DNA of 48,329 nucleotides from Clostridiales bacterium (GTDB lineage: Bacteria > Bacillota > Clostridia > Oscillospirales > Oscillospiraceae). The notes beneath the pieces are model-generated. The model made no database searches. It was not told where the DNA came from and saw only the letters and a program-made list of their open reading frames with translations. Shown piece after piece: positions 7,902-12,980 of the stretch (position 1 is the first letter of the stretch; every line of letters begins with the position of its first letter). Position numbers and translations under genes: made by a program. The stretch covers positions 1 through 48,329 of the forward strand of contig JAJPXY010000065.1 in the NCBI GenBank assembly GCA_021205205.1, read 5' to 3'.

Positions 7902-8699
7902 ATGAACGAACAGAAGAAACAGCGCCCGTCCCGGGAGGACGGAAATCGCCGCCGGGAGGCGGAAGCGGACGGCCTGATCGAGGGGCGCAACGCGGTGATT
8001 GAAGCCCTGCGCTCCGGGGCCGCAATCGACAAAATCTACATCGCCAGGGGGGAGACCGACGCCGCCCTGGGCCATATCGCGGCCAGGGCCAGGGACGCCG
8101 GGGCTGTGGTGGTGGAGGTGGACCGGCGGAAGCTGGACTATATGTCCCGCACCCACGCCCACCAGGGGGTCATCGCCGTCTCCGCCGTGCGGGAGTACGC
8201 CTCCGTGGAGGACATTCTGGCCGCCGCCGCCGCAAAGGGGGAGCCGCCGCTGATCGTGGTCTGCGACGAGCTGTCCGACCCCCACAACCTGGGGGCGGTC
8301 ATCCGCACCGCCGAGTGCGCCGGGGCACACGGGGTCATCATCCCCAAGCGCCGTAGCGCCGGTCTCACCGCCGTGGTGGCCAAGACCAGCGCCGGGGCCG
8401 TCTCTTATGTGCCGGTGGCCCGGGTCCCCAACCTGACCGCCACCCTGAAGGACCTGAAAAAACAGGGGATATGGGTCTTTGGGACCGCCGCCGGGGGAGA
8501 TACCGCACTCTACCAGGCCGACTTGAAGGGCCCCGCCGCCATCGTCATCGGCAGCGAGGGCAGCGGCATGAGCCGCCTGGTGGCGGAGAACTGCGATTTC
8601 ACCGTGCGTATCCCCATGAAGGGGCAGATCAATTCCCTGAACGCATCCGCCGCCGCTGCGATTTTGCTGTATGAGGCGGTCCGCCAGCGGCTGGGATAA
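7902..8699 (+). CDS. rlmB: 23S rRNA (guanosine-2'-O-)-methyltransferase RlmB-like (SpoU/TrmH family)
   Basis: A 265-residue SPOUT-fold methyltransferase that uses S-adenosylmethionine to methylate a ribose 2'-OH on RNA. An N-terminal substrate-binding domain (about 20-105, from DGLIEGRNAVIEAL) is followed by the catalytic domain. That domain has the three family motifs: DPHNLGAVIRTAECAGAHGV, VIGSEGSGMSR, and IPMKGQINSLNASAAAAI. Sequence supports the RlmB/TrmH group; 23S rRNA G2251 is the known target of RlmB but is inferred here. GGAG lies 11 bases before the ATG. The next gene starts 16 bases after the stop, so they are probably co-transcribed. Confidence 0.92.
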   Translation: MNEQKKQRPSREDGNRRREAEADGLIEGRNAVIEALRSGAAIDKIYIARGETDAALGHIAARARDAGAVVVEVDRRKLDYMSRTHAHQGVIAVSAVREYASVEDILAAAAAKGEPPLIVVCDELSDPHNLGAVIRTAECAGAHGVIIPKRRSAGLTAVVAKTSAGAVSYVPVARVPNLTATLKDLKKQGIWVFGTAAGGDTALYQADLKGPAAIVIGSEGSGMSRLVAENCDFTVRIPMKGQINSLNASAAAAILLYEAVRQRLG

Positions 8700-8715
8700 G
8701 CAGAGAGGAACAGCA

Positions 8716-11241
8716 ATGGAGACTAAACGCAAGTGGAACCCGGAGGATGAGCTGGAGGGGACCGACGAGCTGATGCACAGCGGCGCGGTCCCCGAGGAGA
8801 CGGTTTATTCCCTGGACGATATTTTGAGAGAATACGGCGGGGAGGACGACCTCCCTCCGGCGGCGGAGCCGGTGGAAACGCCGGAACCGCCCGCCCCGGA
8901 GGAGGACACCGCCGGACAGCAGGAAGATGCCCCGCCGGAGGATATTACCCCGGAGGACTTAGCCACCCAACATTCAGAACCGGAATCTGACGCTCTCTCC
9001 GATACGCCGGAGGCTGAAACGGCGCCGGAACCGGAGGCGGCTGCCCAGGAGGATGCAGAGCCATCCGCACCGCCGGAGGCACCGGCAGGGGAGACCGACC
9101 TGACCGACACCGCCGCCTTTATCGGGCAGCAGGTGGGCGAGGCCATCGGCCTGGACGAGGAGCCGGACGAGGAGGAGTCGGAACCGGAGGAGGACACCTC
9201 CGGCGGTCTGCTGCAATTCTTCCTGGACGCCCGGCGCAGGACCGCCCAAAAGCGTCCGCACAAAAAGGGCGCCGCGGCGGACATGGAGCAGGCAGCCGCC
9301 GCCATGACGGCCACGGTGGAGGAGACCCGCGCGGAGGCGGAATCCGCCAAAGAGGCGGTGGAAAACGCAAAAAACGGGGAGAATGTGGTGGAAATGCCCA
9401 CCCCCAAGGCCAAGTTCTTCCGGGACAGCCTGGGCCGCATCCAGGACAAAGCTCACGACTTTGCCGACAATATGTATGCCGACGCGGAAAAGGCGGGGGA
9501 CGACAGCGGCGGCGTACCCGGCACGGACGAGGAGGAGGCCCCGCCGGAAAAAAAGCGCTCCTGGCGGGAGCGCCGCCCCCGGAAGGAGCCGCCCAAAGCG
9601 CCGGACCTCTCCGCCGAGGAGCTGGCCAGCCGCTACCGGCTGGGGCTGCGCTTCATGCGGCAGCGGCTGTACTACACCTTCGCGCTGATCCTGGTGCTGC
9701 TCTACCTCTCCATCGCGGAAGGGTGCGGATTCCCGCTGCCCGCCGCGCTGCTGGACCACCGGGTCATGTCCGGTGTGCTGACCTGGGGGCTGGCCCTGGG
9801 CACGGCCATCGAGCTGGACGTCCTTTGGATGGGCCTGACGGCCCACTGGCGGGGCAAGCCCGGCTTACATACCATCACGGCGCTGGCCGTGCTGGCGACC
9901 CTGCTGGACGGCCTGGTCTCCGCCCTGGTGGGGCGGGAGGGGCCGCTGCCCTTCTCGGCCATGGCGCTGGTCAGCCTCTTTGGCGCGGCCTGGGGGGCCT
10001 ATGACCGTAAAAAGGCCCTCTACCTCTCCTGCCGGGTGGCCTCCAACTCGTCCCAGCCCTACCGGGTGACGCTGGACGAAAACCAGTGGGACGGCATCAG
10101 CGGTTTCAACCGGGAGGAAGGGACTGTTGAGGGCTTTGGCAGCCAGGTTCAGGGCATGGACGGCGCGCAGCGCATCTACCGCACCTGGACGCCGGTGCTC
10201 ATCGTGGCCGCCGTGGTCTGCGCGGTGGTTTCCTCCGTGGGCTGTGGCCGCCCGGCGCTGCTGCCCTGGTGCCTGTCCACCATCCTTGTGGCGGCGGCCC
10301 CTGTCAGCGGGCTGCTGGCCTTCGGTCAACCTTATCTCCGCCTGACACGGCGGCTGGACCGCTCCGGCGCGGTGCTGGCGGGGTGGGAAGGCGCGGCCTC
10401 CATGCGGGGCAAAGCCAATATCCTGGTCAAGGACGAGGACCTGTTCCCGGAGGGCAGCGTCATCATGAAGTCCATCAAGCACAGCGAGGGCGTCTCTCTG
10501 GAGAAGCTCACCGGCTGCACCGCCTCCATGCTGCGCAGCGCAGACAGCGGACTCTATCGCCTGTTCGACACCGAGCTGCGCCGCCAGGGCGGGTTTTACC
10601 GCCGGGTGGACAACCTGGAGTGCTACGAGGCGGGGGGCCTGACGGCGGACATCCGGGGCGAGCAGGTGCTGATCGGCACCTCCGGGTTCCTGACCGTCAT
10701 GAACATCAGGCTGGAGAACGGCATGAAGCTGCGCCGGACAGTCTACTGTGTCATCAACAAAAAGCTGGCGGGCTTTTTCAGCCTGGATTACGAGATGTCT
10801 CACTATTCCAAGGCCGCAGTCCGGGCGCTGGTCAAGGGCGGAGTGCGCCCGGTGCTGGTCACCCGGGACTTCAACATCATCCCCAGTATGCTGCAAACCC
10901 TCCACGACCTGCCGGTGAGCCAGATGGAGTTCCCGCCCATCGAACGGCGTTGGGAGCTGTCTGAACCGGGAAGGCCCCACAACCCGGTGCTGGGCGCGCT
11001 GCTGACCCGGGAGGGCATGGGGTCCTACTCCGATGCGGTGCTGGGCGGAAGGCGGCTGTGCGCCGTGGTTCGGCTGAACGCCTGGATCGCCGTCCTGGCC
11101 TCGCTGGTGGGTGTGGTCCTGTCCTTCTACCTGACCTGGTCGCTGGCCTTCGCATCGCTGACCCCGCTGACTATGCTTGGTTTCCTGCTGCTGTGGGCGG
11201 TGCCGAACCTGGTGATTTCCGGCGCGGCGGACCAGTTCTGA
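8716..11241 (+). CDS. Membrane protein resembling a degenerate P-type ATPase, acidic N-terminal half
   Basis: An 841-residue protein. The ATG at 8716 follows AGAGAGGAACA; an in-frame ATG at 8671 lies inside rlmB and is unlikely. Residues 1-300 are low-complexity Glu/Pro/Ala sequence with a YSLDDILREYGG motif at 31-42. Membrane helices occur at about 318-335, 350-375, 385-404, 412-428, 490-510, 515-537, 788-807 and 810-836. The segment 523-550 matches the CPx helix of heavy-metal ATPases, but the metal-binding CPC is APV (528-530). The phosphorylation loop after ANILV (567-571) reads KDEDLFPEG in place of DKTGT. Residues 640-720 match the nucleotide and hinge region (GLTADIRGEQVLIGTSGFL, then GFFSLDYEM), yet the hinge reads VLVTRD, not MLTGDN. 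I infer a catalytically dead P-type ATPase relative with a structural or sensing role. It follows rlmB by 16 bases and ends at a strong terminator. Confidence 0.85.
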   Translation: METKRKWNPEDELEGTDELMHSGAVPEETVYSLDDILREYGGEDDLPPAAEPVETPEPPAPEEDTAGQQEDAPPEDITPEDLATQHSEPESDALSDTPEAETAPEPEAAAQEDAEPSAPPEAPAGETDLTDTAAFIGQQVGEAIGLDEEPDEEESEPEEDTSGGLLQFFLDARRRTAQKRPHKKGAAADMEQAAAAMTATVEETRAEAESAKEAVENAKNGENVVEMPTPKAKFFRDSLGRIQDKAHDFADNMYADAEKAGDDSGGVPGTDEEEAPPEKKRSWRERRPRKEPPKAPDLSAEELASRYRLGLRFMRQRLYYTFALILVLLYLSIAEGCGFPLPAALLDHRVMSGVLTWGLALGTAIELDVLWMGLTAHWRGKPGLHTITALAVLATLLDGLVSALVGREGPLPFSAMALVSLFGAAWGAYDRKKALYLSCRVASNSSQPYRVTLDENQWDGISGFNREEGTVEGFGSQVQGMDGAQRIYRTWTPVLIVAAVVCAVVSSVGCGRPALLPWCLSTILVAAAPVSGLLAFGQPYLRLTRRLDRSGAVLAGWEGAASMRGKANILVKDEDLFPEGSVIMKSIKHSEGVSLEKLTGCTASMLRSADSGLYRLFDTELRRQGGFYRRVDNLECYEAGGLTADIRGEQVLIGTSGFLTVMNIRLENGMKLRRTVYCVINKKLAGFFSLDYEMSHYSKAAVRALVKGGVRPVLVTRDFNIIPSMLQTLHDLPVSQMEFPPIERRWELSEPGRPHNPVLGALLTREGMGSYSDAVLGGRRLCAVVRLNAWIAVLASLVGVVLSFYLTWSLAFASLTPLTMLGFLLLWAVPNLVISGAADQF

Positions 11242-11260: not shown

Positions 11261-11294
11261 GCGCGGGAGCGTCCTTTCGAGGACGCTCCCGCGC
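11261..11294 (+). terminator. UUCG-loop terminator of the rlmB operon
   Basis: A perfect 15-bp GC-rich stem (11261-11275 with 11280-11294) is capped by a TTCG tetraloop and followed by TGTTTT. Confidence 0.92.
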
Positions 11295-11441: not shown

Positions 11442-12980
11442 TCAGCCCTTGTCCATTGCCTTGGCTTTTTCAAACTCGTCCTGGATCTCCTGGGAAGGCT
11501 CCGCCGTAGCCAGGGACACCACGAAGCACAGCAGCAGACCCACCAGGAAGCCCGGCAGCAGCTCGTAAATGCCGAACACGCCGCCCATGGGGCTGATGAG
11601 GTACTCCCAGATAAAGACCATCGCGCCGCCGCCGACCATACCGGCAATGGCGCCCCAGCGGTTGCAGCGCTTCCAGAACAGGGCGCACAGCATCACCGGG
11701 CCAAAGGCGCCGCCGAAACCGGCCCAGGCGAAGGAGACGATGCCGAACACGGAGCTGTTGGGGTCCCGGGCGAAGATCACGGCGATAATTGCAATGACCA
11801 GCAGAGTGCCCCGGGCCATCAGCATGGTCTGCTTTTCGTTCAGCTTCAGGCCAAACACGCCGTGGATGATGTTCTCCGAGATGGAGGAGGACGCCGCCAG
11901 CAGCTGGGAGTCGCAGGTGGACATGGTGCAGGCCAGGATACCCGCCAGCACCACACCGGCCAACAGGGCGGGCAGGATGCCAAAGCCGGAGAGGTACTGG
12001 GCGATGCCGATGACGGCCCGCTCGGAGTCAGCCAGCTCCTCCAAGATGCCCACATGGGTCAGGGCGCGGGCCACCACGCCCACGCAGATGGCGATGCCCA
12101 TGGCGATGAACACCCAGACGGTGCCCACCCGGCGGCTGAGCTTGATTTTCTCCGGGTCCTCGATGGCCATGAACCGGAGCAGGATGTGAGGCATACCAAA
12201 GTAGCCCAGGCCCCAGGCCATTGTGGAGATGATGGTCAGCAGACCGCCGTAAGAGGTGGAAGTGCCAGTGGCGAAGTCGTGGGTGTTGAGCAGGTCGATG
12301 TAACCGGGCAGGGAAGTAGCGTAGCTGGTGACTTCACCCACGCCGCCTCAGCAGGCCACGCCAAAGCACAGCACCGCGATCAGCGCCACCGTCATGACGA
12401 TGGACTGGACGAAGTCCGTCAGCGAGGCGGCCCGGAAACCGCCGGCGGCGGTGTAGGCGATGATGACGATGGCGGAAATAATCATGGCCAGCACATAGTC
12501 GATGCCGAACAGTGAAGAGAACAGCTTGCCGCAGGCGGAGAAGCCGGATGCGGTGTAGGGGATGAAGAACACCACGATGACCAGGGCGGAGATGCCCAGC
12601 AGGATGTGGCTGCTGTCCCGGAACCGGTTCTCGAAGAAGTCCGGGATGGTGACGGAGTTATTCAGGGCGGAGTAGTGGCGCAGCCGCTTGGCCACGATGA
12701 GCCAGTTGAAGTAGGTGCCGATGCCCAGGCCCAGAGCGGTCCAGAACACATCGCAGATACCGGCAGCATAGGCCACGCCGGGCAGACCCATCAGCAGCCA
12801 GGAGGACATATCCGACGCCTCGGCGCTCATGGCGGTGACCAGCGGTCCCATCTTGCGCCCGCCCAGGTAGTAGTCGCCCACGGTGCGGTTGCCGCCCGCG
12901 CAGCGGAAGCCCAGGTAGAGCAGGAACGCCAGGTAGCGGATGATGGCGATCACCATGCAGATAGTGGATGAAGATAACAT
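11442..12980 (-). pseudogene. putP: Sodium/proline symporter PutP, interrupted by an in-frame TGA
   Basis: Read through, this is a full-length (512-residue) member of the sodium:solute symporter family that imports proline with Na+. N-terminal landmarks are YYLGGRKMGPLVTAMSAEAS and DMSSWLLMGLPG. Later ones are MAWGLGYFGMPHILLRFMA and SFAWAGFGGAFGPVML, all typical of PutP. Codon 211 is TGA (12350-12348), within GVAC-stop-GGVGEV, while the frame is open on both sides. In E. coli PutP this position is an ordinary residue of the ISVGGFG segment, so selenocysteine is unlikely. A nonsense mutation or a base-call error fits better. A GTG at 12341 could restart translation but has no clear binding site. 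The gene has its own promoter and terminator, and a TetR gene lies upstream. Confidence 0.88.

Follow-up and report, generated by a model that had tools for sequence, protein, structure and literature searches.

A predicted family of P1B-derived pseudo-ATPases encoded next to rlmB in one order of Clostridia

Main finding

We analyzed a stretch of 48,329 nucleotides from a Clostridiales bacterium of the Oscillospirales (contig JAJPXY010000065.1 of assembly GCA_021205205.1), referred to below as the window, and focused on the gene that follows rlmB on its plus strand. The open reading frame extends from an ATG at position 8716 to a stop codon ending at 11241 and encodes 841 residues, in agreement with the long and intact frame reported in a preliminary description of this DNA. 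According to its family profile and predicted structure, the encoded protein is a descendant of a P1B (CopA-type) ATPase, and the alignments show that it has lost P-type chemistry, so that it almost certainly no longer works as a P-type pump. The gene is kept in single copy by nearly all members of one bacterial order and is under purifying selection.

Descent from P1B ATPases

With the single protein as a query, the only Pfam match was an insignificant one to TIC20 (E 0.051), the NCBIfam match to a copper ATPase was weak (E 0.0046), and a PDB sequence search returned no P-type match; Pfam, PHROGs and PADLOC scans were uninformative on the identity of the family. The family profile matched the structure of LpCopA (3rfu) with E 3.6e-34. 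The predicted structure contains eight helices together with P and N domains, its best fold matches are P1B ATPases, and its N-domain region superposes on the AfCopA N-domain model 2voy_J with 2.0 Å over 109 residues. The heavy-metal P-type ancestry proposed in the preliminary description is thus borne out by both the profile and the model, and the superposition on CopA that it suggested returned a fold of the CopA type.

Loss of the pump elements

The known role of P-type ATPases is pumping, and a member that has lost the phosphorylated Asp is usually regarded as inactive. We compared residues between 134 distinct pseudo-ATPase cores and 20 true P-type ATPases of the same class; the 134 cores represent 158 loci, some genes being counted twice through overlapping records. 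In the true P-types, Asp572, K573, T574-G575, the CPC pair, E606, H611 and K744 (positions of the window protein) are each present in 20/20. Among the pseudo-ATPase cores, K573 and T574-G575 occur in 0/134, the metal pair C528 with C530 in 0/134, and the SEHP adenine-site residues E606 and H611 in 0/134, while the Tyr-Asn pair of transmembrane helix 5 (TM5) is absent from all 134 and the motif-III Lys (K744) is kept in only two. Asp572 is kept in 10/134 cores, all of them deep-branch members without KTGT behind it (L053, L057, L058, L060, L063, L069 and L078-L081), which look like possible intermediates on the way to losing the phosphorylation site.

The preliminary description had listed three lost elements, and two of these losses stand as described, DKTGT being replaced by KDEDLFPEG (residues 572-580) and the metal-binding CPC by APV. 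The third, the TGDN hinge, was lost only in part: the segment reads TRDFN, in which Gly717 is mostly Arg (107/134) and Asn is shifted by one position (Asn720, 121/134), but Asp718 is kept in 132/134 cores. The losses also extend beyond these three elements. The actuator domain of LpCopA (residues 218-335) falls outside the family profile match, and the model has a hairpin at this place; no TGES was found there, the one TGEA (L050) being located in the N-domain. The stretch between the hinge Asp and residue 781 measures 63 residues in 104 family members, compared with 95 in the 15 true P-types where it could be measured; it is shorter by about 32 residues and therefore lacks the GDGxND segment. 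No GDGxND was found in the P domain of the family, and one GDGVN (L164) lies before the hinge.

DKTG is present in the core of none of the 158 loci, which answers the proposal to collect orthologs and check the conservation of the dead motifs. Close homologs with an intact DKTGT, which would have made the window copy simply a mutated pseudogene, were looked for and none was seen; the 20 same-class P-types with DKTGT are only remotely related and match no more than parts of the family profile.

The closest known systems are the CopA-type copper-exporting P1B ATPases (LpCopA 3rfu/4bbj, ATP7B, HMA4). In comparison with them, the pseudo-ATPase lacks the actuator domain, DKTGT, GDGxND, SEHP, CPC and the TM5 Tyr-Asn pair, and has a long acidic tail instead of metal-binding domains. 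A working pump is rejected on these absences. Pumping that continues by a divergent mechanism could draw on the retained hinge Asp and on the few cores with Asp572, but a protein without actuator domain, GDGxND segment, CPC and SEHP makes it very improbable.

Distribution and selection

Among genomes of the order that are at least 95% complete, full or near-full matches at E 1e-45 or better were identified in 143/148 genomes and 89/92 genera; G418 carries a divergent copy beside rlmB. In a class-wide sample, all 12 genomes of the order were positive, and in the 231 genomes outside the order P-type matches were no more than partial and reached at most 115 bits. In a phylum-wide sample, 7/398 genomes matched, all of the same order. 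Scoring was limited to five candidates per genome in the class sample and to three in the phylum sample. Some of the matches in an earlier tally of 72/79 relatives come solely from true P-types (G002 is one case), and the order survey was relied on instead. The named loci mostly carry the label Oscillospiraceae, including Flavonifractor, Pseudoflavonifractor, Intestinimonas, Evtepia and Papillibacter.

In ten close pairs, the ratio of nonsynonymous to synonymous substitution rates (dN/dS) ranges over 0.062-0.247 in the core and 0.166-0.335 in the tail, and only a few of the genomes listed in the order survey lack an open frame. A decaying pseudogene is therefore rejected by purifying selection and order-wide retention. 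A related possibility is that the gene is carried along neutrally in the rlmB operon; this fits the observation that the four genomes of the order without the pseudo-ATPase are also without RlmB, and a shared assembly gap would fit it as well. In one genus, both genes are present in one grouping of three genomes (G337, G346 and G433, or G432, G434 and G435) and both are absent from the other three. Such joint absence may reflect one assembly gap or one deletion, and we did not use it as proof because the genes adjoin and several genomes are incomplete. Against a passenger or pseudogene stand the low core dN/dS, the open frames, the order-wide retention and the persistence of the gene in G048 away from rlmB, and we regard this explanation as hardly credible.

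Remodelled pocket and conserved residues

The strongest conservation of the family lies mainly in the cytosolic head. Apart from the hinge residues D718 and N720, the positions kept or newly conserved are D573 and F577-P578 (122 of 134 cores each), G641 (133) and G654 (134). D573 and R745 occur together in 109 cores, D573 alone in 13, neither in 12 and R745 alone in none, as would be expected of a new ionic contact.

This pattern bears on the possibility that the head is a different enzyme or a ligand-sensing domain, in which D573-x-D575 after the first HAD-like strand would form a new active or binding site with D718, N720 and R745, such as one for nucleotides or phosphorylated compounds. In its favour, the pocket has a conserved new form instead of being randomised, both glycines of the nucleotide domain are kept, and the N-domain fold is intact. 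However, D573 is one position off the register of the catalytic Asp, the motif-IV segment GDGxND is deleted, and the adenine-site Glu and His are gone from every core; we consider this alternative somewhat unlikely. The preliminary description had argued for selection on a non-enzymatic role. A P1B protein that lost its pump function and is kept by selection is supported by the fold, the universal lack of DKTG, the substitution rates and the order-wide occurrence. The non-enzymatic part is our inference, and the remodelled pocket may have another activity.

A passive channel or secondary carrier would use the eight-helix bundle without ATP. The model shows the entire membrane part, and 125/134 cores retain W827, but no core has either the metal Cys pair or the Tyr-Asn pair, the conservation peaks mainly in the head, and in the conservation profile we noticed no charged or polar residue of a pore that is conserved. 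Such a function therefore appears quite unlikely.

The acidic tail and its motif

The first 300 residues consist of 27% D/E, 10.7% P and 14.7% A, as expected from the Glu/Pro/Ala-rich composition noted previously. The AlphaFold model of the tail has a pTM of 0.21, with residues 43-97 and 99-118 below pLDDT 50. The tail contains a conserved short linear motif, YSLDDILREY in the window protein, of which residues 33-40 form a predicted helix (block pLDDT 76, AlphaFold). Its strict form was detected in 67/148 tails and its loose form in 110/148. Shuffled tails gave means of 0.0 and 0.28, respectively, and no copy was found in 315,145 residues of other frames of the flanking DNA. A motif common to other proteins of these genomes was rejected, as the 16 best matches are all in the pseudo-ATPase gene. 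The first match outside it, in a 113-residue frame of G056 that we take to be a MazG-like pyrophosphohydrolase, has E 0.0137 and is regarded as a chance match. The L011 tail has three copies (FSLEEILSSY, YSLEEIMQEY and YSLEEILHEF), suggestive of multivalent docking. A second motif, [IVL]PG[TSADN][DE], is not family-wide, being present in only 42/148 tails.

Gene order and features of the window

The rlmB product has Pfam matches to SpoU_methylase (2.1e-45) and SpoU_sub_bind (1.9e-17), and its stop codon at 8697-8699 is separated from the pseudo-ATPase ATG by 16 nt. A same-strand rlmB precedes the pseudo-ATPase gene in 143/158 loci (72/79 and 71/79 in two locus sets) and in 121/134 distinct cores, consistent with the operon placement behind rlmB given in the preliminary description. 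Of the 15 remaining loci, 13 hold at most about 210 nt before the frame. With start codons picked by a ribosome-site heuristic, the median distance from the rlmB stop to the chosen start is 35 nt, and 92/138 loci have at most 60 nt. In L163, rlmB lies in the same frame as the pseudo-ATPase gene; a fusion was rejected, since this poor sequence is full of N and the frame slips inside rlmB. A mirror-tree comparison gave r 0.88 (105 loci), which mostly reflects shared vertical descent.

A terminator-like hairpin of 15 pairs starts 20 nt past the pseudo-ATPase stop codon, and therefore rlmB and the pseudo-ATPase gene probably form a two-gene unit. The hairpin alone is no proof of a terminator because the region has 5 such sites versus 3.3 (standard deviation 1.9) in shuffles. 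Further downstream, at 11442-12980 on the minus strand, one in-frame TGA divides a sodium:solute symporter gene into two parts, each with a Pfam SSF match; the break resembles either a recent interruption of the gene or an error of sequencing.

Table 1. Features of the pseudo-ATPase gene and its surroundings in the window (all on the plus strand)
Feature	Residues	Positions	Basis
rlmB, SpoU-family 23S rRNA 2'-O-methyltransferase, upstream gene		7902..8699	Pfam matches
AGAGAGGA, likely ribosome-binding site, purine-rich, 6 nt before the ATG		8702..8709	sequence; inferred reading
CDS, P1B-derived pseudo-ATPase, 841 aa plus stop		8716..11241	frame and translation
Acidic tail, mostly low-confidence in model	1-300	8716..9615	composition; AlphaFold
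YSLDDILREY, conserved short linear motif	31-40	8806..8835	tail motif counts; predicted helix 33-40
Predicted helix ahead of membrane part	233-258	9412..9489	model helix 10-35, pLDDT about 50-70
Helices equivalent to MA, MB, M1, M2	311-444	9646..10047	model helices 88-221; profile 9-148 vs LpCopA 75-217
Beta hairpin where actuator domain belongs, no TGES	449-468	10060..10119	model strands 226-245; profile match
APV in place of CPC metal motif in M4	528-530	10297..10305	alignment
KDEDLFPEG in place of DKTGTLTxG	572-580	10429..10455	alignment
N-domain fold; SEHP lost, G641/G654 kept	580-693	10453..10794	2voy_J superposition; alignment
TRDFN in place of TGDN hinge	716-720	10861..10875	alignment
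Helices equivalent to M5 and M6, without Tyr-Asn pair	768-839	11017..11232	model helices 545-616; alignment
Terminator-like hairpin, 15 pairs		11261..11294	hairpin search

Proposed function

We propose that a CopA-type heavy-metal ATPase was captured behind rlmB in the ancestor of the order, that it then would have lost its actuator domain together with the residues for phosphorylation, hydrolysis and metal binding, and that it gained a long disordered acidic tail before being kept by selection in single copy. The eight helices would anchor the P/N-domain head at the membrane, while the tail may extend into the cytosol and dock a partner protein through its short helical motif. The remodelled pocket (D573-x-D575, R717-D718-x-N720, R745) could either lock the head rigid or bind a ligand that changes its shape. 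The task of the protein may concern translation or the maturation of ribosomes close to the membrane, as suggested by its presumed coexpression with RlmB. The pseudo-transporter would thus work as a membrane-anchored scaffold or receptor, a role that we consider probable, if only just.

Several observations weigh against parts of this proposal. Superposition of the whole protein on CopA is loose (root mean square deviation 9.3 Å, Foldseek TM about 0.5), partly because the domains sit differently, and Asp572 survives in the ten deep-branch cores. Common descent is a confounder for the pairing of D573 with R745. In 38/148 tails the short motif is missing or could not be recognised, and family f10 (L056) is almost without a tail, so the tail is not essential to the job of the core everywhere. 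L043 (in G048) is a true exception to the gene order, with rlmB on another contig, and fixed gene order alone is no proof of joint function. The open frames of L056 and the other f10 genomes are 553-555 aa long and comprise the core only.

Reuse of a membrane enzyme fold is known from the iRhoms, polytopic pseudoenzymes of animals that retained the fold after loss of catalysis and use it for protein binding; their fold is unrelated to that of the pseudo-ATPase. Human TMEM94 (ERMA) is said in one study to be a Mg2+ ATPase. Passages of another (PMC12134183) describe it as a P-type-like protein with an A, P and N layout, disputed ATPase status and no TGES, and in this layout and questioned pump status it resembles the pseudo-ATPase. 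According to the same passages, TMEM94 is eukaryotic, has ten helices, keeps an A-like domain and the proposed phosphorylation Asp, and is nearest to SPCA, whereas the pseudo-ATPase has eight helices, lacks an A-like domain in its model and has P1B proteins as best folds. Our search of the open-access literature found no bacterial family of dead P-type ATPases of this kind, and the passages of a review (PMC10654040) that matched the search terms contain none.

A more specific version, which we regard as unlikely, is a ligand-gated membrane tether in which the former phosphorylation pocket, now D-x-D-[LI]-F-P and R-D-F-N, would respond to a small molecule while the tail motif brings RlmB, or a different protein of ribosome maturation, to the membrane; if true, this would be an order-defining bacterial family of pseudo-P-type ATPases. 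The family is a clear case of the reuse of a pump fold, in an order with many gut commensals, and it offers concrete handles, namely the docking motif, the rebuilt pocket and the operon partner, that are testable in cultured Flavonifractor or Pseudoflavonifractor.
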